Shown here one piece after another: positions 1-64,000 of a stretch of DNA of 64,000 nt. Each line of letters begins with the position of its first letter. Position 1 is the stretch's first letter. The notes beneath the pieces were generated by a model. It was not told the origin of the DNA. It did no database searches and saw only the letters and a program-made list of their open reading frames with translations. The position numbers and the translations under genes are program-made. This DNA comes from Apostichopus japonicus (lineage: Eukaryota; Echinodermata; Holothuroidea; Aspidochirotida; Stichopodidae), in contig NC_092580.1 of NCBI RefSeq assembly GCF_037975245.1, positions 29,105,501-29,169,500 of the forward strand. The letters run 5' to 3'.

Positions 1-1439
1 ATGTTCAATATCTTTCGATTCGCCATTTATAAAATCATCCTCATTTTACCGAAAATAAGTATTGTAATAATAAATAAAGAAAACCACTAAAAAAATTGAA
101 GCGAATATGTGGCTCGAATTTTGTCATATTTAGACTTGCTAAAATCTCCTCCTTGAGTGTATTGGTATTGCCAACATGGAATAAAACAAATCTTTGCTGT
201 TTGGGGAATTTTGTGTGTAGCAGTAAGCTCTATCACATAAACTTTTAAGTTCTTAATCTTTGTTCTATCCACAGACCGATACGGAAAATGAAGAAAATGA
301 TCAGGACCCCTAGACAAAGAGAATACCATCAATGACCTCAGCTTCATCATGGTTGGAGCCCAGGTTAGTTCCCGTTGTCACATCCCACACCCTCCTCCTT
401 GAGATGGAATTTTGAAAAGATTAAATGCCTTGACATAAGTTAATTTTGACCAGCCCGCACCAACCCAACCCGCCAACAAACTCCCAACCCCCTTAATAAA
501 AACAAACAATTAGAATCCATACCGACGAACATCCACTCATATATACATGCAAACAAAAATTATAATAATTGCAAGAAAGCAACCTCCAGTGCCAAACCCT
601 CCCCCCCAACCCCCACGAAAAGAAGGGAAAAGAACAAGAAACGGTTGAAAGAAAAAACCGTGGTGAGTCGGAATAAGTCGATCGAGGGGAATGATGATCT
701 TGAGTTCTATAGGTTACATCATATTTTAGTAATAACCATTCAAATCTCAGTGGCGTAGGAATGTACTTTTGAGTGGGGGGGGGGGCTGAAGACTGATGGC
801 CGGCCTGGGGGAGGGGTTTAAGGGGAGGGGGTGTCCCCCTCCCCTTTGAATTTTTTTGCATTTCCAGGTAGCCTCAGATGCAATTTCAGGTGCGTATCCA
901 GGGGGGGCGTTGGGGGCGCGCGCCCCCCGGTTAAGAAAAAGAGGAGAGAAAAAAAGAGAAGAAAAAAGGAAAAAAGAGGGGAAAAAAGAGGAGGAGGAGA
1001 GGAAGGAAGGGAAAAGAAAAAGAAGAAAGAGAGAAAAAGTAGAAAAGGAGGGAGTAAAAGAAAAACGCGAAGACACCGGGAAGAGAAAGAGGAACAGTGA
1101 CATCATTACAGCGCTGAAGGGTAGCCAGTGACGGATCAATGATTTCGTAAAAGTTTGACTCACCCTACCCCTTACATCGACAACTCCATTTTTTGACGTT
1201 TCCATTTTCCTCTCTCACTAATGATCTATATATATACTTTATATGGTCTATCATAACGCGTGTGTAGAATTGTGCTATGAAACCAACTGTGGCTGGTCTC
1301 GAACTCGACCGAGTCGTCGGGGAACATGACGCATTTTGGGATGGGGGCGACCGCCCGCCCCCCCCCCATTCAGCATTTCTTTAAATGATATGATATCGCT
1401 AAGTAATTTCAAAATAGAAAGTGCTTACATGCAACTTAC

Positions 1440-3018
1440 AAGGCCTGGGAAGTGTCATTTCCAGCGATCTGGGAGACATTTTCGGCCAAAATTTGCTTGT
1501 ACGCTTCGCGCTAACAAATGGTCCTGGGTAGTGCCATTTCCAGCGATCTGGGAGGCATTTTCGGCCAAAATTTTCTTGTACGCTTCGCGCCAACCTGTGG
1601 CGCTACGCTTAGATAATTTGCCTACAGGCTTCGCCCCTCACTTGGCAAATTCCTCGCTACGCGCCTGTTCGAATTTGTAACGCAAACAGCAGACACACAT
1701 CATATCAGTGAGCATGAAAATGGCGTTCCAGGATGAAAAGCCTCAAAACTGTCCGACTTGCCTGAAAAAATAACCAACAATTTTCGCGCGCGAAGCGCGC
1801 GTTCAACGTTCTGGATATCATATAAGCAAGTATCGGTTATTACATCGCATGCCATCATGTACCGTACGGTCCGTTCAAATTGCGCAGTATACCGCGGGAT
1901 GCTAATGTAAACAACGACATGTCTCATGTAGATGTATAAAAAGCATGGAGGTCCAATTATGTCAAAACTCTCTTTTACATTAGTAATGGCGAATTAGGGG
2001 CTGCACCCCCGCCGCGCAGTGGCGGAGCGTCCATACGGTAAAGGGGCGGATGCCCCCACCCCCTGACGGACTCAAATGGACTGCTGGTGCCTTTTTCAGC
2101 TCTTTACCACTTTTTACTTTTGTATTGCGCTCTCATCTACTTATTGACATTTGTCACATTTTGTTGGTGTAATTTGGCGATGACACCTTATTCTTCGTTT
2201 ATCTGCAAATTAGCCAGGCCCGGAAAGGGTCATTTCCGGCGATCTAGGGAATATCTTTACTCAAAAATTTTCTGCACGCTACGCGCCAACCAGTGGTGGC
2301 GCTCCGCTTAGATAGTGTCGAAAGCGCCCCTACAGACCATTCTCGCCCCTCCTGACCAATAACCCTAGCTCCGCCACTGCGCCTCCTACGCCTATGTGTG
2401 TAGTGTTCGGTTTCGGAAATATCTGCTATTTTTTCATTTCCTTCAACCAAGTTTTATAATAGCCGTTATAACAGGTTTTAATATTTGTACACCAATAAAT
2501 TAACTGTGTCTGAATTTTCGAAAATTTATGACCAACATACTGCATCACACTTCCCTCTACTCGTGCAATTTTGACCGGTCTGTTATAGGGGTTGAAGGAA
2601 GTTTTTCTATATTGGTTGTCCATAGATGAAATTTTGTACAACATTATGGGTATGTTTTGAAGTGAGTTTATTCACGAAAAATGTGAATTTTCAAATTCTG
2701 AACAAATATGGGGCTTAAAACCTTGAAAAGTGGGGCTGACGGGTATTGTGGGCCGCGACGTAGAATCACCTACTAAAGCAAAGCCCCACAGCAGATGCGA
2801 TCAGGTCGAACATGATGTGTGCCGGGTTGAACATCTTCAAAAAGGTTATGGATGGAAAAAGACTATTAGGAAATACTTGGTTCTCAGGCAAAAAGTGTAC
2901 ATCTGGTTGGTCATTTCAAGCCCGAGAAGTGCCGTTTCCGGTGATCTGGGGGGTATCAAAACAAGAAATTTTCTTGTACGCTGCGCGCCAACCGATGGTG
3001 GCGCTCCGCTTAGATAGT
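1440..3018 (+). repeat. Four copies of a ~110-bp module (GGCCTGGGAAGTGTCATTTCC...)
   Basis: Copies lie at about 1440-1516 (truncated), 1526-1619, 2216-2317 and 2918-3018. Each runs from a GGCCTGGGAAGTGNCATTTCC-like start, through GCGATCTGGG, to CTTGTACGCTTCGCGCCAAC and a GTGGCGCTCCGCTTAGATAG end. Inverted or partial copies lie at 50096-50197, 50500-50556 and 51409-51512. The same module occurs in elements with different termini (2017-2379 and 50449-50613 as well as the 2 kb elements), so it is shared between families. Confidence 0.7.
2017..2379. mobile_element. Short CAGTGGCGG-ended element inside the 2.2 kb element
   Basis: The ends read CAGTGGCGGAGC (left) and, inverted, CAGTGGCGGAGCTAGG (right). 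The sister copy at 50051-51969 lacks this 363-bp segment: its uninterrupted sequence there corresponds to gcccccgcctcctacg. Flanks cgccgcg and cgcctcc form an imperfect target duplication. The segment carries one copy of the internal module (about 2216-2317). It is the third level of nesting here. Confidence 0.65.
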
Positions 3019-4461
3019 AATTCGCGCCCCCCGGGTTTGAAAATCCTGGATACGCGCCTGAATTTGGTGCAATATAGCACACTTCAACACCGACTCCATT
3101 TTGTAAACTTAATTTTGTATTTTCACCTGGCCTTAGATGCAATTTGGTGCTCCAAATGAGATTTTTTTTCTCATTTGGAAATGAAAAAGGGGTTTTCTGA
3201 CTTGCGAAGCGGGGGGGCGGAATGATACTTCCGCCCCTCCACATTTTTCACTGGGGGGCTGGCGCCCCCCCCCAGCCCCCCGGTTCCTACGCCCTTGTCA
3301 AATCTAGTATACTTATAACATAGTCACGTGTGTCCCTTTATTCACTTTGATTGGGCTATGAATGGTAATTACGAAGGTCATAGGGAAGCACATAAAAAAA
3401 ATCGTAAAAACAGTTGAAAGAGAAAAACCAGGGTCGAGTCGGAATAAGAGTTCAAAGTGAAATGATGATCATGAGCATTACACCATTAAAGTCTAGTATA
3501 GTTCAGCATAGTCTGCACTTTCCACCTCTTTATTCACTTATTGGACTTGAAATGAAATCACGAAGGCCATATAGGCAAGCACATAAACCTTTTATTTTTT
3601 AAACTTTGTTTATAACCATTGAGCTTTAACGAATAGCTCAACGTCATGATGGTGCCTCGCTGATGTCAGCAGGTCAGTCAATTGCGACCTCCAGAATGTG
3701 CATTTCATTCATCTTCATCTGGTATAAATATTCCTGCAGGAACCCGTACATCGAACAAATTTTACTTAACATATATAATGATATGTCAGTTGCCACAGGT
3801 TCCCGGGAAATAACTAAACATATATTGCGTGCATGCTTTCTTGAAATAGAAGTATGACTGTGAAAAATGAAGAAAATGATCTGCAGGTAAGGTAACTAGT
3901 AGACGTCTTGAACATGACTCTATAGGTCTTGCACAACGATTAATTGTTCCATTGACTTACACACTAGACTCGTCACTTTCAAGACCTGCCAAAGCATAGA
4001 AGTTTCAACTGGTATAGGCTATATCCTACCCACCACATACATGATAGCTGAGATCTTGGCCTATCATGGCACTTGCAAACTTCCATATCATGACCGCTTA
4101 GATTTTGAGCTAGAAGAGGAGCAAAGTTTAGAGCCACCACCCTTCCATCTGCTCGTTCTGAGTAATATCAACATTTTACCAAAGATTTTCTAAAATGGCT
4201 TATATCACCTTCGATCCTCCCTATTTTCACACCATCTGAACTGCTCTTTGATATAAAGGCAGAACAAACGATGACAGTAACTGATAACATGTTTAAACAA
4301 GCTTTACCTTAGGTAATTTTACCTCTTTTCTCTTACATTGGTAACCTTTTGAGCGGGTGAACACTACTCTAATTGTGGTGAGTTACCCATAATAGTATAC
4401 AAAGTCGGACTTCGCGGCAAGTACAGTGATGCAATGAGTAGCATACTGATTGACCAATCAC

Positions 4462-45301: not shown

Positions 45302-46648
45302 TTAGAAAGCTGTCCGCAAACGGTTGACTCGATCTTGAAAACTTCTCCTAAAGCAGAGGACCTTGAGCATGCCGAGACGGAAACGCATATTCATCTTCGC
45401 GTACAGGAACGGATTAAGCATAGAATTAAACCAGATGAGTCGCTGTAGAATCTCCCAGATCAACCCGGGAGCTTGATAAATATGCCATGATTGTAAGAAC
45501 ACCAGGATGTGGTATGGTAACCAACATGCAGTATATACGGTTGTTAACAGAAAGACACTTCGAGCAACACTGGAGTGGTCAACAAGTTTAGTATTTTCTT
45601 TTCGCTTGCGTACCCTCTTTCGATAACAAACACGGCTGTCCTCGCTTCCCGTACATTGTCGTTTTTCGTAGGTGACGTATTTCACGCCGCTGTCGGTATC
45701 ATGCTCTGCGTGTTGGTTTTCATTGCCTTCGAGTCTATTGTCTGTCTCAAATCCATCGTTTATTATTGCAAACCCTCCATGATCACCTTGTGAGCTGTTC
45801 TCTGCCATCCCTGTCGTTCCTGTAGAAATTACAGATTTCAAATCTGCGTCCGTTTCTTGAGAAATCGTTCTTTTCGGGTGAGAATTCCGGAGGTTACGAT
45901 TATTAAGTTTTCGATGTACCTTGAAGGCTACCGTTACATTGACTGCAACCAATAATACCAAAGGAATGATGAAATCTAAATTTTCCAAAATGATGGACAA
46001 TAACATGTTGTCTGTATTTTGAATCGCAACAAGGCATGTTGCTGACCCCCCTCTTCGAGTTGATGGGCTCATAATGTCGTTGGTCGACACCGAATACAGG
46101 ATGGTGTACAACGTGGTGTAGATCCACACCAATATGACCACACCCCTCGCAATGGTGTGATTCTGTAATCTCTTATATCTTAGCACATCGGATATCAGCC
46201 ATAATCGATCAATACTGATAACAATGACAGTCACCACAGACATGTAAATCACAAAGTAGTGCATCGATAACCAAGCAGCACAGAAGATATCACCGAATGG
46301 CCAGGAACCAATAGCCAAAGTTAAGAAATCCACTACCATCACAATCGAACCAACTAAAACATCCGATATCGACAAATTCAGGATAAAAATATTTGCAACG
46401 GTATTTCTGACGAAATCGTTGAGGACGTAGGATGCTATGACGATGATATTGCCGCCAATTGTAGTCAGTAACACAATCGCATAACACACCAAGAACATAA
46501 TCCAAAGAACTGGATGTGTCGAGTCTTGCCATGGCGTTGTGAGATCTTGTGACATGTAAGAGCTGTTCATAATATCCATCTTCGTAATAAATTCGTTTGG
46601 CGGCGAAAGGCGGCTGTATAATATTAAACAAGTTTCCGTTTCGATCAA
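45302..46648 (-). CDS. Class A GPCR, amine-receptor-like but lacking Asp3.32
   Basis: A single exon of 448 codons with seven hydrophobic segments. Landmarks: N67 (TM1 GGN), D96 (TM2 LSISD), C123 and C205 (conserved disulfide), D147-R148-L149 (DRY variant), W175 (TM4), P229 (TM5), C375-W376-L377-P378 (TM6), N412-P413-F-L-Y416 (NPxxY). The third loop is long (about 243-358) and basic near TM6. Overall pattern is histamine H3/muscarinic-like. At the amine-binding position 3.32, seven residues after C123, it has His130 instead of Asp, so a classical monoamine ligand is unlikely; the ligand is unknown. The first Met is at 1, but Met24 (MDIMNSS, followed by a glycosylation-type NSS) is a plausible start. 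The last exon residues RTAF precede TAA at 45302. Confidence 0.92.
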   Translation of the reverse strand: MIETETCLILYSRLSPPNEFITKMDIMNSSYMSQDLTTPWQDSTHPVLWIMFLVCYAIVLLTTIGGNIIVIASYVLNDFVRNTVANIFILNLSISDVLVGSIVMVVDFLTLAIGSWPFGDIFCAAWLSMHYFVIYMSVVTVIVISIDRLWLISDVLRYKRLQNHTIARGVVILVWIYTTLYTILYSVSTNDIMSPSTRRGGSATCLVAIQNTDNMLLSIILENLDFIIPLVLLVAVNVTVAFKVHRKLNNRNLRNSHPKRTISQETDADLKSVISTGTTGMAENSSQGDHGGFAIINDGFETDNRLEGNENQHAEHDTDSGVKYVTYEKRQCTGSEDSRVCYRKRVRKRKENTKLVDHSSVARSVFLLTTVYTACWLPYHILVFLQSWHIYQAPGLIWEILQRLIWFNSMLNPFLYAKMNMRFRLGMLKVLCFRRSFQDRVNRLRTAF

Positions 46649-48734
46649 ATCAAAATAAAGCAGAATATAGAAGAATAAATTCTAGTCATTTGCAGTAAAG
46701 TTAAAACGTTTTGAATTCTTAACGATGAAAACATACAGTTTTCAGTGAATAAATGTAAATATCTCCTCCTTAAGAAAAGATATACTCTTACTGAATGACG
46801 ATATTTTCTCTTAGAGCAAAACGCAACCGCTAATTTTATGCAAATATATAAATATACCTAGCTTCGTGTCCCGTCTTTTTATCGACCGTTTTCCTAGTTA
46901 ATCTCTCTTTCTCTCTCGCTTCATCTCTCTCCGCCTGTCTCACTTACACTCTCGCTTTCTTTGGAGGTAACTAATGAAGTGAACATATATATCAAAGATG
47001 CTTCTTGGCATTTAAACTTGATCGCACGCCTAGATATTATTTGAGCTTTGAAATTAATCTGCCTTAATGCACTGTAATCCTTATTCAGTCATTTACCATT
47101 CACCTGTTCACATGACCAAGAGTGACTTTGTGATTGGACAGAATGTGATTACTTAAAACAAACGTATTTGCGAAGATGCAGTAAAAGGGGAAACAACTTT
47201 GAATGGAGGTCAGTTTGTAATTATATTGAATACGGTTATATACTGAACAATAGAAAATTATTTTCCTTCAGCTTATTGACAATTTAATTGTTCAACACAT
47301 TTATAAATATACCATATCTTATCATTTAGAAATACATAAAAACGTCATACATTATATAAAAAAAATAACATCATGTTTATTTGAGACGGCACTGAGTATA
47401 TAATCGTTGTAAAAAAAAGTGAGAGAAAAAATCGTATTGACTCTGCCCTATATGCAGATGCCGTATAACTAGGCTACGTAGACTGGATGTTATGTCAAAC
47501 ATTACGAAACCGGTAAAAGAATTTTATCTGCTGCCTTGCCATCTACATCAAAGATTTAAGTCCTATTTCGTGACGTATTTACTCTTTAAGTTTCAGGTTT
47601 CTTCAATCTACTTGTTTACATCATTATTTGGAATAATAAGAAATGACTTGTGCAGGTGAAGGTTATCTTCATTTCTTTATATGAGAGTTTAGTAAAGAAT
47701 GAAATCGACAACGTTGATCAAAATTGCAAATTTGAAAGCCGCTTCTTATAGTTGCAATTTATTTCCGTGAATTTGATTAGTCCGATATCCGTTTTGATTT
47801 TTCGGTTCGTTAGTTGTTCGGGGAGTTTTCTTTGTTAGTGCATGTGTGTGTGGGGGGGGGGGGGGTGGGGGTAGTGTGTGCGTATAATTCATCCTTTTGT
47901 TTCGATCGATTATGTATTAATTATTTGCAATCGTCAGCTTTACAATATGAGCAATGTATAAATACGAGTGGAGTCTGATTCATTATTCTAGGTCCTAATT
48001 CGAGTCCCTGGTTATGTTGAGTGCGTATTGTCAAATTTCGATTAGATTCAGTCTTTTGGAAACTGTTTTAAATGTATAGTATTTCTTATTGGGGTTTATA
48101 TCTCCACTCATATGAAACTAGTCGATAGAAGAAGACAAAATTAAGCGCAAAATACAAAACAAACCTCAATTTGTTTTTTTTTTGTTTTCCATATAAGAAC
48201 GAAATAAGTCTTTGATAATGAATATCACGCGACAAAAGCATTTGCTGCAGAATCGACAATGACGTTACAGGTAGGACATGATTTAACTTTAGTCGACTAT
48301 TCATAGGGTTGAAATCAATCCAAGAGGTTTTACCATGGAAAGTACAGGGATAGGAGTGAAGAAGTCCTTTGGGGGGGGGGGGGGGGGGTTGCTCACACAA
48401 CCCCTGGATTTTGTGTACAGCTAATATTCCTTTTTTGCCTGCCAAACTATAATATTCCGCTGATTGTTTTAACTTTCTTCCCGTTATCAAGAATTTAGTA
48501 CAATTGTCAATTATATACGATATATTGAGCCGAGCAAGATCGTGCTGTTATTTCTCTTATTCACAATGTCTGCTGGAAAAGATCAAACTATTGCTAGAAT
48601 AAAACACAATTTTGACCGTTTTCTCATTTTTCAACTCTGATAACAAAATGTTAGCTATAGGGCTTATAGGGATGGGACGTAATCATGTTATATCTTCTGC
48701 AATCATGCAGTTCTGATCCAAGCTGGTTTTATGG
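46649..48734. other. No gene recognised; two long poly-G runs
   Basis: Intergenic DNA upstream of the GPCR. It contains G homopolymers at 47853-47866 and 48371-48388 and a TC-rich stretch at 46901-46960. The ORF on the - strand at 48086-48490 spans a poly-G run and has no domain I recognise. Confidence 0.5.
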
Positions 48735-49215
48735 TAAATATCGATTTATTGGGAAAATGTTCGATGTTTTGTTTTAGATCTCATCGATCATCAGTTACAT
48801 GCACCCAAAATGATTGGCATCATTTTTGTTTTTGGATTATTGTTGAAAAAGCTTTCAATACAATTGAATGGAACTTTATTGACATTGTCTGCATTTTGTT
48901 GGTTTTGAGGAGAAATGACCAAATTGGGCAAGCAGTTAGAGACCTTTGAACAATGTTTTTCTTGAACGGATTTTAAAATAAGTATAGAGGAGTTCGTCAA
49001 GAGTGTCCTTTGAGCCTCTATCGTTTCATTTTATTTATCAAGCTGTTAACTCTGAGCGTCATGGACCCCCCACCCCTCACACCCTGGGAAATACCATTCC
49101 TCCCCGAAGAGATAAAAAATCTAACAGTTTATGGATGACACTGTCATTTTCTTGGATGTCAGTTTTGATGCTCTTCGTATATGCTATTAAATATTCTTAA
49201 TTGCCTAAAATATGA
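48735..49215 (+). pseudogene. LINE reverse transcriptase fragment (copy A)
   Basis: Frames across this stretch give ENVRCFVLDLIDHQLHAP-like, then VEKAFNTIEWNFIDIV (RT motif A region, normally DxxKAFD), then RGVRQECPLSLYRFILF (the QGCPLSP motif). Finally VYG is followed, after a 1-2 nt shift, by DDTVIFLDV, the catalytic YxDD box. Stops and frameshifts show it is dead. The part from 48980 onward is duplicated at 60106-60340, where the LINE continues further. Confidence 0.8.
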
Positions 49216-49220
49216 GAAAT

Positions 49221-49880
49221 TATATGTTCAAAACTATTCTCATCACCTTCAAAACCTCAAGGACTAATTAGGAATTAACGTTCTCATATTCTCATCCGAA
49301 AACAGACCTCTGAAAAATGTGATTTCAAAACAAGAAAACGATGACGCCATATTAGGAACACAACTGCCAAGCACAGGCATGTACCGGATGCGCGACGATC
49401 ATACCGTCCCACATTCACATACATTTACACTGAGAAAAACAACCACTGTATTTCGCTATATCGTTAGAGATTTCAACTTTTCTTTACAACATGTAAAATA
49501 TCAGAGAAAAATGCCTGTCCGTTGTGTTGTTGGAGTCTGCAGTTATGTCATAACCCGTGCAATTAGCCTTCATCGTTGGCCAAAGGACGAAAAAAACACC
49601 AGCCAGTATACAGCTCCGTATGTAGCGAACACTTCACGGAAGCAGACTACGATCGCTCCTTCTACTGAAATAAAACAAATGGGCTTTAATGGGTCGACAT
49701 AAACGAGTCGTTCATACTGGCAAGTACCCCACATTAAAAACTCCTAAGACCAGAGCGGGGAACAGGAAACCTCCAGTGGGACAAGTGGCGATCCTTTGGA
49801 GGAAGCGCGGCCAAGCACTAATGCTAGTATTAGCGTTACTACACTGAAGTCGCAAAAGACGAAGAGTGTTTCCATTATCA
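49221..49880 (+). pseudogene. THAP-domain gene fragment (copy A)
   Basis: From ATG at 49511: MPVRCVVGVCS, then ISLHRWPKDEK, then, after a frameshift, the bases for CSEHF. This is the C2CH zinc pattern of a THAP DNA-binding domain, common at the start of P-element/Kolobok-type transposases and of host THAP proteins. The start MPVRC and the RWP segment are intact, but the domain is broken in the middle. The downstream bases match copy B at 61849-62520. Confidence 0.7.
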
Positions 49881-50050
49881 TCTTAATTCACACCCCTTAA
49901 TTGCCCTATAGTTGTGTAGTAAGAACTATAAGGTTAGCTTCAGAAGGGATGGGTTACACCGTCTGTGAAAAATCTCAGTGCCACAATTTCTTTCTGGAAT
50001 ATGCTGGGTCAGTTAGTTATTTCTTATTCGTATCCCAGGAAAACCATTTT

Positions 50051-51969
50051 CAGGCGCGTATCCAGGATTTTCTAACCCGGGATGCGCGAATTACTGTCTA
50101 AGCGGAGCGCCACCATCGGTTGGCGCGGAGCGTACAAGAAAATTTTTGGTTTTGATACCCCCCAGATCACCGGAAATGGCACTTCTCGGGCTTGAAAATG
50201 AGCAACCAGATGTACACTTTTGCCTGAGAACCAAGTATTTCCCAAAAGTTTTTTCCATCCATAACCTTTTTGAAGATTGTCACCAGTCACACATCATGTT
50301 CGACCTGATTGCATGTCCTATGGATCATTGCTTTTGTAGGTTATTCTACGTCACGGCCCACAATATCCGAAAGCCCCACTTTTAAAGGTTTTAAGCCCAT
50401 TACTTGTTGAGAATTTGAAAATTCACTTTTCTCGTGAATAAAATCACTCAGTGGCGGCGGAACCGGGGGGGGGGGCTTGGGGGGGCTCAGCCCCCCCAAT
50501 GAAAAATTTCCTTGTACGCTCCGCGCCAGCCGATGGTGGCGCTCCGCTTAGATAGTCTCCACACATTAGCCCCCCCCCCCCCCCCCAATAATTTTTACGT
50601 TCCGCCGCGCCTGAAATCACTTGAAAACATACCCATAATGTTGCACAAAATTCAATCTATAAACAACCAATATAGAAAAACCTCCTTGAACCCCTAACAG
50701 ACAGGTCAAAATTGAACGAGTAGAGGAAAGTATGATGAAGAATGTTGGTGAGGAAATTTTGGAAAATTCCGACACAGTTAATTTATTGGTGTAGAAATAT
50801 TGCAACCTCTTATAATGGCTTTTACAAAACTTGGTTGAAGGAACAGAAAAATAGGAGATATTTCCGATATCAGGTATATCGAAACCGAACACTTCACTCA
50901 TTGGCGTAGGTCCCGTAGGAGGCGGGGGCTGCAGCCCCCCCCCCCCAATTTTTTTCCCATTTTTTTTGGGCACCTACTGAAAGAAAAATAAATAGCAATG
51001 AATAGCTTAAAATGATCTCCTTGGTAATTTAAATAAAGTTGTAAGCTTGGCCGACATTACTACTGTAAAAGAGAGTTTTGACATAATGGATCTGTATGCT
51101 TTTTCTCCATCTACATAAGACATTTGGTTGTTTACATTAGCATCCGGCGGTATACTGTGCAACTTTGACGGACCGTGCGGTACACGATGCCATACAATGT
51201 AATGACCGATCTTGCCTATATGATATTGGCATCGACATGTTGAATGCGTGCTTCTTTGACTACACACATTGACAGTTTTTGAGGCTGTACATCGTGGAAC
51301 ATGCATTTCAATGCTCATTGATATGATGTTATATCTGCTCTTTGCTTTACAAATTCGAACAGGCGTGTAGCGAGTGATTGCCAAGGGAGGGCGAAGCCTG
51401 TAGGCAAACTATTTAAGCGAAGCGCCACCATGCGTTGGCGCGAAGCGTACAAGAAAAATTTTGGCCGAAAATGCCTCCCAGATCGCTGGAAATGACACTT
51501 CCCAGGCCTTGTAAGTTGCATCTAAGCATTGTCTATTTTGAAATTACTAGCGATGTCATAAAGAAAATTTGCTCGGGGGGGGGGCGGTCGCCCCCTTCCC
51601 GAAATGCGTTATGTTCGCCGATGACTCGGTCGAGTTCAAGTACATTAGTGAGAGAGGAAAAACGGAAACGTCAAAAATGGAGTTGTCGGGGTAAGGGGTA
51701 GGGTGAGGCGCACACCCCCTCCGTAATCCTTGATCTGTCACTGGCTACCCTGTGTATATAATAGGGATCTTTCTCTTCCCGAGGTCTTGGCTATCTTCTA
51801 CTCCCTCCTTTTCTCCTTTTTCTCTCTTTTTTCTTTTTCTTTTCCCTTCCTTCCTCTCCTCCTTTTCTTTTTTCCCCTCCTTTTCCCTTTTTTCTTCTCT
51901 TTTTTTTCTCTCCTCTTTTCCTTACCCGGGGGGCGCGCGCCCCCAACGCCCCCCCTGGATACGCACCTG
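50051..51969. mobile_element. Second 1.9 kb TIR element with 5-bp duplication (inverted copy)
   Basis: Ends CAGGCGCGTATCCAGG and CCTGGATACGCACCTG, flanked by ATTTT at 50046-50050 and 51970-51974. The duplicated segment at 62673 is uninterrupted here (aaaaccattctatgttgg), a direct empty site. Its sequence, read on the - strand, matches 887-3060 over most of its length, including the purine-rich block (pyrimidine-rich on the + strand, 51785-51925) and the internal modules, so it is the same family in opposite orientation. No transposase frame. Confidence 0.9.
50449..50613. mobile_element. 165-bp hAT-like MITE nested in the 1.9 kb element
   Basis: Ends CAGTGGCGGCGGAACC and, inverted, CAGGCGCGGCGGAAC, with a perfect 8-bp target duplication AAATCACT at 50441-50448 and 50614-50621. 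The sister element has an uninterrupted gttttgaagtgagtttattc at the corresponding place (about 2653-2673). It consists mainly of G and C runs around a partial internal module (cttgtacgctccgcgccagc ... gtggcgctccgcttagatag). Confidence 0.88.
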
Positions 51970-53002
51970 ATTTTATGTTGGGGAGGGAGTGAGGGTGAAA
52001 GGGATTGGTCAAAATAAGGTTATAAAGATTATATTCCAAAGGGTGTTTAAATCTCACAGAGATTTATTTTAAACAGTCACAGAGCCAAAAATTGGCACAA
52101 CGTAGTTCAAATATTAAATCTTTGAACGAAGTTCATTCAATATCAGTTCTAGACAGTCGTCATTCTGGACAATCTGAACAAGCCTGTGACTAAACCAACA
52201 TTAACAACAATCATTGCTTTATGTCATCAATATAAAACTGTACTTTTCATAGACAATATCATTCTTAAATTACACTGATGTAATTTGTGACATCAAAGGA
52301 GGTTTAAGGAAAAACAACTTACATGAAAGTTTTGGCTTCAAGCCTAAAAAAGATACATGTTCATTGCCATCAATCGTTGTTGTGACAAATTAATTAGAAT
52401 AAACCAGAGGCAAACAGAATAAAGGGTCATTTCAACCAAGAAACACTGCATGACGCAACTCACATGCAACAATGTTACCACACATGACGACACGTACAAC
52501 ACTGACGCAACGTGAAACACAGCATGACACGCATTATGAGTTTCTGAAGAAAGATTGTCAAACAAACCACCTGCTGCTGAAGAAACAACTCTAAACATTC
52601 AAGAGTTCTTCTACCTCCATTAATCTTTATTATGACTTTTTGACAAATATCATGGAAGCAAACATGTTTGGGAGGTAAATGCTCCGAAAATGGTAAATCC
52701 CCGTTCACTTATGCTCATATTATATGACATCATTGTCACGCCAATACATGTATCCAAATGCTTCAAAACATGCCTTTTCATTTCATTGTTGATATTGGGT
52801 CTGGAAAATGACCATTTCATCCTTAATTAAAAGTCTTGAATTTCAATATATCAACACTTAAGGAACCCTGACGGATTGATAATCCAACACAATCGTAGAA
52901 TAGAAAAGATGTTTCTGGAGGGATTTCTCAACCAAGGCTTCCTATACAATAGCGTTTTCTCTTGGCAACTTGAATCCAGTGTACATACCATTGGATGGAA
53001 AC

Positions 53003-53113
53003 TCACTTCTGATCCTTTGGACTGCACATGATGGTAACAAACCCCTGACTAGTCATGTTAGGACCCCCTAGCAACATGGAACCTGTTGACGGAATGCTAT
53101 GTATCTGTACTGC
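53003..53113 (-). CDS. Candidate terminal coding exon, copy A (unrecognised gene)
   Basis: On the - strand a good acceptor (ttttcttttcag) is followed by 36 codons and TGA. The peptide begins AVQIHSIPSTGSMLLGGPNM and ends TSQGFVTIMCSPKDQK. The phase is assumed to be 0. Sequence after the stop looks like a 3' UTR. I do not recognise the family, and no upstream exon is identified; upstream exons would have to lie to the right, beyond or interleaved with the + strand TIMP gene, so this copy may be an orphan duplicate. Confidence 0.45.
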   Translation of the reverse strand, partial: AVQIHSIPSTGSMLLGGPNMTSQGFVTIMCSPKDQK

Positions 53114-53479
53114 CTGAAAAGAAAATTATGAAAGTTTAAATGTATTAATGTGGGCCCTTGATGTCCACAATAACAAGCGTGATACAATGTACTGTTATGG
53201 TTACATTTGTTGTGAATTTACACCTTCCATGTTTCATGAACATTCTTTACAGTTTCAGACAATGATTTTCAAAACTCCAGGCCTAAGTGCTAACCTAGTA
53301 ATGAGTATAAAAAGACACAAATGCCTACCTAACATGGCTGCATAATGCAGTTTACATCCCTGAGCCAAACTTTCAGTATTCAACCAACCCTACTAGTAGT
53401 AGATACGAAAGATCTCCATATCAATAGAGACAACGCTTCATGGTAAACAGTCATGTGAAACAATCTCGACCAGGTTCAA

Positions 53480-55159: not shown

Positions 55160-58059
<2,900 letters not shown>

Positions 58060-60105: not shown

Positions 60106-61840
60106 TATAGTAGAGGAGTTCGTCAAGATTGTCCTTTGAGCCTCTATCGTTTCATTTTTTTTATCAAGCTGTTAACTCTGAGCGTCATGGACCCCTCCCC
60201 CCCACACCCTGGTAAATACCATTCCTCCCTGAAGAGATGAAAAATCTTACAGTTTATGGATGACACTTTTATGTTCTTGGATGTCATTTTTGATGCTCCT
60301 TGTATTATGCTATTAATATTCTCAATTACCTAAAATCCTCTTCGAGTTTATAGGTGAATTATGGCAAGTCGCTTCTCTTTCCTTTAGTTGGCTAAAGAAT
60401 GAAACCCCTTGCTTTCACAACATATTTAACTTGAAATAGACTAGCCTCAATTAACTGCATACTAAAGCCTTCAGCGCCTTAAGTAATGATTTCATATTTA
60501 ACTCTACAATCGACAGGATTAATATCGTAAAATTGTTACAGTTGCCTCAATTAGTTTTTAATTCAGATCTTTCCGGATTCTCCATAAAGTCTTTCTCGAA
60601 AACACTCGACATTATTTGAACTAGTTTAAAGTAGCGCTAAGCCTGATATAATAGTAAGCGTTATACCATGTTGTTCAATGCTCTTGATATGGGTGGGGCT
60701 AAGGGCGATACACCTTCATTCCTCGTTTCAAGTTTAAAGTGTCCTTGGGTGAAACGGTATTAAGATACTATAACACAAATGATTTGAAAGTCTATTTTGT
60801 TTCTTTCTTTTATTTCCATATGAAAAATTATGGCGGTTCTAAGTTGTTTAATTGTAATTTTAAGAAGGAAGATATTACCCTACATAATCATTATATTTCT
60901 GGTGTGTGTACTTCGCCTGTGCAAGTTTACTCATCGAAGACCTGAACATAATGTTTTATCAAAGTAAATAATAACATTATTAACTGTCAATGTTTAACAT
61001 AGCAAAAGGTGTCCTTCAAGTCAAAGATATTTTCGACCACTATAAGCGTCATTTTGTCATATCCTGATTTTGTGGCAAAATGTTCTCTGAAATAATTTCC
61101 CATATTACTTTATTTTATGGTTGCTGTTCTGCCATCCGTCGAAGTTGCAGGAATAGTTTGCGCAACGATATTGAGGAGACTTTAAGATCCCCTCTGGATG
61201 GTTTTATTAGCACTTCCGCCTAACCAAGAATTATAATATTATCATAATTAGGTCAAGTAGTTACTCACCCTCCTACTGCTCATTAAAAATTGGAATCAAA
61301 TGTTTCAGTTCAAATAATAACCAATGGCCTGCCATAGATTCGTTGATCCTTTTCTTTCCGTTCGAGAAATATAAAGTCCAATATTTGCAATTTTGCTTCG
61401 TCCATAGAATATTGAGTATTTATCAGTTTCTCTATTGTATCAATAAAACAGTTATTGTTTCTCTGTTCGTTTTGTGGACGATTCTAAGAAACATGAGAAC
61501 ATTTCTTGGGGGACTGTGAATGTAACTTGAAGTAAATAGATGTCGAAAGTGCTATTGTTTTGGCAGGAATTAATTTTTAAACAAGCAAGATATTTTCATT
61601 GGTTATTGTCTTAAGCAGAATCAGCCGTATAACTTCCTTATTTTCAACATGAAGCACATCTTATTTAGTAAAAAAAAATGCTGATCATTGACTATGTGCT
61701 AAATTTTTGCAGAAACTTACGTTTATTTAAAAAGGAGAAAGTACTTCTAGCAAGGCTCATACAAAGTATGAGGAAATAAGACGTTCCTTTAAGAAGGCCA
61801 TGACATGCAATTCCAACTAAGAGTAACTTCCTCTGAATCT
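60106..61840 (+). pseudogene. LINE ORF2 3' half (copy B)
   Basis: Starts with the same RT segment as copy A (GVRQ..CPLSLYRF, then the YxDDT box), then extends about 1.5 kb further. Recognisable pieces are LPQLVFNSDLSGFSIKSF, GGAKGDTPSFLVSSLKCPWV (the GGLxxxxxxxFxxSLKxSWxKR motif of many LINEs), and a cysteine pattern with HENIFLG near 61490, followed by LIFNMKHILFS near 61630. Frameshifts and stops abound. The family was not determined. Confidence 0.7.
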
Positions 61841-61848
61841 ATGAGAAA

Positions 61849-62520
61849 ATATATGTTCAAAACTATTCTCATCACCTTCAAAACCTCAAGGACTAATTAG
61901 GAATTAACGTTCTCATATTCTCATCCGAAAACAGACCTCTGAAAAATGTGATTTCAAAACAAGAAAACGATGACGCCATATTAGGAACACAACTGCCAAG
62001 CACAAGCATGTACCGGATGCGCGACGATCATACCGTCTCACATACACGCACATTTACACTGAGAGAACAACCACTGTATTTCGCTATATCGTTAGAGATT
62101 TCAAGTTTTTTACAATATGTAAAATATCCGAGAAAGATGCCGGTCCGTTGTGTTGTTGGGGGCTGTAGTTATATCATAACCCGTGCAATTTGCTTCATCG
62201 ATGGCCAAAGGACGGAAAAATACCAGCCAGTATACAGCTCCGTATGTAGCGAACACTTCACGGGAGCAGACTACGATCGCTCCTTCTTACTGAAATAAAA
62301 CAAATGGACTTTAAAACGAGTCGTTCTTCTTGGCAAGTACCCCCACATTAAAAACTCCGAAGACCAGATCGGGGAACAGGAAACCTCCAGTGGGACAAGT
62401 GGCGATCCTTTGGAGGAAGCGCGGCCGATCACTATAGTACTAGTATTAGCGTTACTACACTGGAGTCGCAAAAGACGAAGAGTGTTTACATTATCATCTA
62501 AATTCACATCCCTTAATTGC
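61849..62520 (+). pseudogene. THAP-domain gene fragment (copy B)
   Basis: From ATG at 62137 one frame runs MPVRCVVGGCSYIITRAI, a frameshifted middle (the RWPKDE segment is lost), then YSSVCSEHFTGADYDRS and stop at 62296. The C-x4-C and C-x2-H zinc ligands of a THAP domain are kept, so this copy preserves the end that copy A has lost. The sequence downstream (gggacaagtggcgatccttt) is shared with copy A. Confidence 0.7.
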
Positions 62521-63696
62521 CCTATAGTTGTGTAGTAAGAACTAGCTCCAGAAGGTTAGCTCCAGAAGGGATGGGTTACGCTGTCTATGAAAAATCTCAG
62601 TGCCCCAATTTCTTTCTGGAATATGCTGGGTCAGTTAGTTATTTCTTATTCGTATCCCAGGAAAACCATTCTATGTTGGAGAGGGAGTTGGGGTGATAGG
62701 GATGGTCAAAATAAGGTTATAAAAGATTATATTCCAAAGGGTGTTTAAATATCACAGAGATTTATTTTAAACAGTTACAGAGCCATAAATTGACACAAAC
62801 GTAGTTCAAATATTAAATCTTTGAACGAAGTTCATTCAATATTAGTTCTAGACAGTCATGTTGGACAATCTGAACAAGCCTGTGACTAAACCAACATTAA
62901 CAACAATCATTGCTTTATATGACATCAAAATAAAACTGTACTTTTCATAGACAATATCATTCTTAAATTATACTGATGTAATTTGTGACATCAAAGGAGG
63001 TTTAAGGAAAAACAACATGAAAGTTTTGGCTTTAAGCCTAAAAAAGAAGAAGATGCATGTCCATTGCTATCAATCGTTTTTGTGACAAATTAATTAGAAT
63101 AAACCAGAGGCAAACAGAATAAAGGGTCATTTTAACCAAGAAACACTGCATGACGCAACTCACATGCAACAATGTTACCCACACACGACGACACGTACAA
63201 CACTAACGCAACGTTAAACACAGCATGACACGCATTATGAGTTTCTGAAAAAAGATTGTAAAACAAACCACCTGCTGCTGAAGAAACAAGTCTAAACATT
63301 CCAGAGTTCTTCTACCTCCATTAATCTTTATTATGACTTTTTGACAAATATCATGGAAGCAAACATGTCTGGGAGGTAAATGCTCCTAAAAAGGTCAATC
63401 CCCGTTCACTTAGGCTCATATTACATGACATCACGGTCACGCCAATACATGTATCCGAATGCTTCAAAACATGCCTTTTCATTTCATTGTTGATGTTGGG
63501 TCTGGAAAATGACCATTTCATCCTTAATTAAAAGTCTTGAATTTCAATATATCAACACTTAAGGAACCCTGACGGATAGATAATCCAACACAATCGTAGA
63601 ATAGAAAAGATGTTTCTGGACGGATTTCTCAACCAAGGTTTCCTATACAATAGAGTTTTCTCCTGGCAACTTGAATCCAGTGTACATACCATTGGC

Positions 63697-63807
63697 TCAC
63701 TTCTGATCCTTTGGACTGCACATGATGGTAACAAACCCCTGACTAGTCATGTTAGGACCCCCTAGCAACATGGAACCTGTTGACGGAATGCTATGTATCC
63801 GTACTGC
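63697..63807 (-). CDS. Candidate terminal coding exon, copy B (unrecognised gene)
   Basis: Same 36-codon exon as 53003-53113, with the acceptor ttttcttttcag and stop TGA. The only difference over 111 bases is CAG to CGG at codon 3 (Gln to Arg), while a 7-bp indel lies immediately past the stop and the flanks carry many changes. This contrast suggests recent coding constraint. Upstream exons of a real gene could lie beyond base 64000. Confidence 0.5.
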   Translation of the reverse strand, partial: AVRIHSIPSTGSMLLGGPNMTSQGFVTIMCSPKDQK

Positions 63808-64000
63808 CTGAAAAGAAAATTATGAAAGTTTAAATGTATTAATGTGGGCCCTTGATGTCCACAATAACAAGCGTGATACAATGTACTGTTATGGTTAGAT
63901 TTGTTGTGAATGTACACCTTCCATGTTTCATGAAACATTCTTTACAGTTTCAGACAATTGATTTTCAAAACTCCAGGCTTAAGTACTAACCTAATAATGA

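Follow-up and report, generated by a model that had tools for sequence, protein, structure and literature searches.

Elements of the hAT type are described with target site duplications of 8 bp in PMC3942097 and PMC8721813. For hAT families with 5-bp duplications the name hAT5 is in use (Kapitonov and Jurka 2007, Repbase Reports 7:1188-1191, cited in PMC12730594), and no hAT5 passage was obtained from PMC6004678. A literature search with five end sequences as strings revealed no matching paper, and among the titles listed for hAT elements of sea cucumbers and echinoderms none names the element family described here.

The element is located in a 64,000-nucleotide stretch of Apostichopus japonicus DNA (the window, C20:29105501-29169500). 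It shares 5-bp duplications and hAT-type ends with the hAT5 group, and a companion element of the same genome, which encodes a hAT transposase, is flanked by 5-bp duplications as well. Unlike such an element it lacks a transposase, and the likeness to hAT5 is one to the published description of the group. With a probability of about 0.85 we consider it a non-autonomous hAT5-like transposon, for whose movement a DUF4371-type hAT transposase with a 5-base stagger acts in trans. The features of the element, its insertion site and a second copy are as follows.

887..3060, minus strand: second copy of the family, subfamily B, 2174 bp, with the duplication AATTT at 882-886 and 3061-3065
48985..53304, no strand: duplicated segment holding the element; its paralogue lies within 60111-64000 in three aligned pieces of 92-94% identity
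50046..50050, no strand: left 5-bp target site duplication, ATTTT
50051..51969, plus strand: non-autonomous element, subfamily A, 1919 bp, left end ...CCAGGATTTTC, right end ...CCAGGGGGGG
50051..50066, plus strand: left terminal inverted repeat, 16 bp, CAGGCGCGTATCCAGG
50093..50149, plus strand: subterminal module, 57 bp, about 45 bp inside the left end
51780..51925, plus strand: pyrimidine-rich arm adjoining the right end, purine-rich on the minus strand, limits set by eye
51954..51969, minus strand: right terminal inverted repeat, 16 bp, CAGGTGCGTATCCAGG as read on the minus strand
51970..51974, no strand: right 5-bp target site duplication, ATTTT
62668..62672, no strand: unoccupied paralogous site, ATTCT

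An earlier note on this DNA had described the 16-bp ends, the ATTTT duplication around the insertion, an inverted copy at 887-3060 and a segment reading straight through the insertion site. The two ends, both ATTTT copies and the inverted copy with its own duplication are indeed present. With up to 3 mismatches the 16-bp end matches five times in the window compared to 0.22 expected matches, and none of 100 shuffles reached five. The empty site is also real and lies within a local segmental duplication. In the alignments the left flank (49211-50048 vs. 61840-62670) is 92.0% identical over 848 columns and the right flank (51970-53304 vs. 62668-64000) 94.3% identical over 1348 columns. Both alignments join where the element is inserted, and the empty site fits a duplication of 5 bp. 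The note's reading was too smooth in one point, as the site reads ATTCT with one mismatch to ATTTT, a difference to be expected from the 6-8% divergence of the segments. Since an unoccupied site and consistent duplications at differing sites (see below) are at hand, past movement of the element family is real, as the note had maintained.

Genome-wide counts, covering 671,581,487 bases on 35 contigs, revealed the 16-mer end at 1973 forward and 1969 reverse places, while the reversed pattern used as control was found at none. Five copies of one end within C16:44210490-45100138 (L087-L091) have the same right flank GTACGTAA and are spaced 176-337 kb apart; because of this shared flank and spacing, the series is probably a long-period repeat or segmental duplication. 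Target site duplications were scored in 36 inverted pairs, 34 on contig C1 and two in the window, so that these figures describe one contig plus the window and not the whole genome. The C1 pairs are adjacent, inward-facing and less than 8 kb apart (1.4-7.3 kb) among 100 listed 16-mer places, and 32 of these places without a near partner were left out of the sample.

An exact 5-bp duplication flanks 31 of the 36 pairs. One pair each shows a match of 6 bp (L010) and 4 bp (L036), and three pairs (L012, L018, L024) show no duplication. Mispaired flanks of different copies served as control and matched over 5 bp in 12 of 1260 combinations. The 31 exact duplications are A/T-rich as proposed, with 120 of 155 bases (77%) being A or T. 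Duplications of 8 bp with shifted ends, which the note had named as evidence against its view, were looked for in this C1 and window sample and occurred in 0 of 36 pairs, so that the family does not show the ordinary hAT duplication in this sample. The proposed family definition, with 16-bp ends and a length of about 2 kb, is supported. Together with the empty site and with terminal inverted repeats of hAT type (13-15 of 16 positions, see below), the family shows the duplication length and the ends by which the 5-bp group is described.

Transib and ProtoRAG elements make 5-bp duplications too, which as a rule are rich in G/C, and they have ends with a CAC-like start. An assignment of the family to such another 5-bp superfamily would account for the length of the duplication. 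However, the family ends begin with CAGGYGCG and not with CAC (an end that also served to select the pairs and is directly adjoined by the duplications), the duplications are A/T-rich to the extent given above, and elements with a hAT transposase in the same genome bear near-identical ends. We regard this assignment as very unlikely.

Beyond the terminal inverted repeat the two ends are unlike: one continues with ATTTTC in most copies, and the other with a G-run followed by the polypurine arm. The 31 copies shorter than 2.4 kb fall into two groups, one of 17 around the copy at 50051 (mean pairwise identity 93.9%) and one of 14 around that at 887 (95.5%), with 86.2% identity between the groups. 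In 50051-51969 the longest stop-to-stop frame comprises 133 aa, in 887-3060 it comprises 116 aa; as judged by eye, neither window copy contains a transposase-like frame, in agreement with the note. The family is an abundant, protein-less mobile DNA element. Elsewhere in the window, an open frame of 459 aa (45302-46681, minus strand) encodes a 7-transmembrane receptor (Pfam 7tm_1, 9.6e-46), and a long simple repeat at 55292-56345 gives rise to long low-complexity frames on both strands.

The subterminal module occurs twice more in the element, inverted at 50502-50556 and directly at 51408-51464. In a search of the window and the fetched loci, leaving out L001-L042, 12 of 20 module matches have a hAT-like end at most 120 bp upstream, at a distance of 44-86 bp, and these ends include those of other families, e.g. 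CAGAGGCGTAGCCAGG and CAGTGGCGGAGCTAGG. The inverted module copy lies within a short nested element:

50441..50448, no strand: left 8-bp duplication of the nested MITE, AAATCACT
50449..50613, plus strand: nested hAT-like MITE, 165 bp; its boundaries (at most 3 edits) are found in 1 of 36 elements
50614..50621, no strand: right 8-bp duplication of the nested MITE, AAATCACT

The 8-bp duplication of this MITE is perfect, and the copy at 887-3060 has the site unoccupied. One internal module of 50051-51969 is thereby explained by the nested 165-bp MITE.

A longer copy encoding a transposase had been suggested as a check, and no transposase between exact CAGGYGCGTATCCAGG ends was found among the copies examined, the five long copies fetched (3.3-7.3 kb) included. 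Three of these five hold other inserts and two carry extra segments, and they were rejected as autonomous sources. The insert of L015 (5.2 kb), about 3.3 kb long, contains a THAP domain (4e-6); past its position 48 the element breaks off, to continue from about position 40, which suggests a duplicated site of about 9 bases. The frames of L036 (7.3 kb) were read by eye as those of a non-LTR retrotransposon. In L042 (6.3 kb), of which about 5 kb match neither window copy, five frames were scanned and none reached the Pfam cut-off. The copies with extra segments are L030 and L039 (both 3.3 kb).

Elements with a transposase were found by means of the hAT dimerisation domain; of 633 first-look candidates, 150 were scored for it. 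Four of the 150 contain an open transposase frame of 804 aa. The corresponding hAT element of 7.7 kb lies at C1:1196941-1204684, and three more copies are located on C7. A C-terminal piece of 606 aa matches Pfam DUF4371 (4.4e-15) and Dimer_Tnp_hAT (3.5e-10) and contains motifs resembling the hAT catalytic and CxxH/RW signatures; a search of the PDB at E 0.01 gave no sequence match to this piece, and NCBIfam no match either. Between the 606-aa pieces of the four open-frame copies the identity rounds to 100%, and in all six pairwise comparisons the 3′ regions of these copies are 98.9-100% identical over about 2.87 kb of DNA, which suggests recent activity of a 5-bp lineage. A fifth copy of the 804-aa type on C17 is 94% identical and has two stops. 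Upstream of the transposase, the element contains a frame of 229 aa (L094:2121-2807, minus strand, corresponding to C1:1201820-1202506) with an above-cut-off match to Pfam Herpes_teg_N (PF04843, 1.2e-8). Herpes_teg_N is a cysteine-protease domain, and the frame possibly represents an accessory protein or a nested insert.

Like the family, the 804-aa element makes 5-bp duplications, in all four open-frame copies (ACTAT, AAAAT, CATAC, GTTAA), and has asymmetric ends ...CCAGGATTT / ...CCAGGGGGGG; it differs in its length of 7.7 kb and in having a transposase frame and one more frame. The 5′ end of the 804-aa element, CAGGGGCGGATCCAGGGGGGGGGC, agrees with the right (G-run) end of the family at 22 of 24 positions in copies with nine G and at 20 of 24 in the two window copies. 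For its 3′ end, CAGTGGCGGATCCAGGATTTCGCC, the agreement with the left (ATTT) end is 17 of 24. The crossed pairings reach 15 and 14 of 24. Within the first 20 positions, two differ at the right end (nine-G copies) and three at the left end.

A frame of 772 aa on C22 shows 48% identity to the 804-aa protein over query residues 2-605. The 3′ end of this copy, CAGGGGCGTATCCAGGATTTTC at C22:19510628, matches the left end of the family at 21 of 22 positions, whereas none of 200 shuffled 22-mers exceeded 17 within these 110 kb; the flank of this 3′ end is AATTA, and a pattern search near C22:19.5 Mb found no 5′ end flanked likewise. On C3 lies a third relative (48% over residues 2-251), between CAGGGGCGGATCCAGG ends 8.1 kb apart, with a flank match of 6 bp, CACACC, and not of 5 bp. 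No duplication was found at a CAGGGGCGTATCCAGG element of 1.09 kb around a transposase fragment on C1, nor at the short hAT-domain element L071 with the ends CAGGCGCGGATCCAGA / CAGGGCCGGATCCAGG; L065, a relative of L071, is truncated at the right end. Genome-wide, the related termini CAGGGGCGTATCCAGG, CAGKGGCGGATCCAGG and CAGGCGCGTAGCCAGG occur at 929 + 926, 401 + 391 and 574 + 596 places. Altogether, the family ends agree with the ends of elements encoding a hAT transposase in this genome at 13, 14 and 15 of 16 positions, and no transposase-encoding element with exactly these ends was found among them.

Two statements of the earlier note do not survive these comparisons. It had called the family unclassified and had held that 5 bp do not fit ordinary hAT. 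Since hAT5 is a named group of hAT elements with 5-bp duplications, this puzzle is answered, and the 804-aa hAT element provides a case with the same kind of ends in the same genome. For an already named family with the same termini, which the note would have accepted as a refutation, the group hAT5 as a whole is at best a counterpart.

The element, having no transposase of its own, would be mobilised in trans by cut and paste. A DUF4371-type hAT transposase would recognise CAG[G/T]nGCG[T/G]ATCCAGG ends and, as we infer the reaction chemistry, connect them with the target DNA at a stagger of 5 bases. The actual partner would belong to the 804/772-aa lineage and would most likely be a relative of the 772-aa copy on C22. 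The note had left the partner as an open question. As the genome contains hAT-transposase elements with ends of this kind, its lineage appears largely identified and is well supported, which does not extend to its identity.

The partner could also come from another hAT lineage making 5-bp duplications, one outside the sample. Only part of the first-look hAT candidates was scored and few were fetched, and among those fetched no autonomous copy with exactly the family ends was seen. Nevertheless, the 804-aa element combines asymmetric ends of this kind with 5-bp duplications, and the left end of the family recurs almost unchanged in the 772-aa relative, so that we consider a separate lineage unlikely, if still deserving some weight.

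Related ends are also found on elements with longer duplications. Places at which the family end is followed by C or T number 20, and on inspection by eye most of them represent variants of the two known ends. One of them, L085, pointed to a family of hAT-like MITEs of 304-306 bp with CAGGCGCGTAKCCAGG ends, which carries the subterminal module. Of this family, 3334 first-look candidates were obtained, of which 40 were scored. The copies read are:

L085:1501-1806: hAT-like MITE, 8-bp duplication
L095:41-345: hAT-like MITE, 8-bp duplication
L096:41-344: hAT-like MITE, 8-bp duplication

The 8-bp duplications of these three copies are ACTTTGAC, CTGACAGT and ATTCGATT, and the nested MITE of the window is a fourth case beside them. 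These MITEs have terminal inverted repeats near-identical to those of the element (19 of 22 positions between the left end of the 5-bp family and L095) and the module in common, with 78.8% identity over 99 bases to L085. They differ from it in their 8-bp duplications and in their lengths of 165 or 304-306 bp. Because similar ends occur on 8-bp elements, and because the match partly consists of a G-run, end similarity alone cannot fix the group.

The homologous ends, the 8-bp duplications in 3/3 MITE copies and the common module would agree with an ordinary 8-bp hAT transposase moving the family, the 5-bp duplication being an artefact of misplaced ends. But not a single one of the 36 family pairs has a duplication of 8 bp, 31 have exactly 5 bp, and the empty site fits 5 bp as well. 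We therefore find this explanation scarcely credible and keep to the non-autonomous hAT5-like transposon.

It is possible, though rather doubtful, that near-identical homologous ends, comprising terminal inverted repeat and module, are used with two cleavage staggers of 5 and 8 bp in one genome. If so, the staggers of two hAT transposases would have drifted apart, with the non-autonomous clients of both continuing to exchange or share ends, and the clients would record a change in the length of the target duplication within hAT. Either client elements passed module-bearing ends around, or hAT transposases of different stagger share end recognition.

Most likely, the element is a further member of a known hAT branch with 5-base and not 8-base duplications. 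An apparent exception would thereby be removed, as the high-copy 5-bp family is most simply viewed as a client of this branch. Families with 5-bp and 8-bp duplications and homologous ends in one genome may offer a natural case for studying what sets the hAT stagger.
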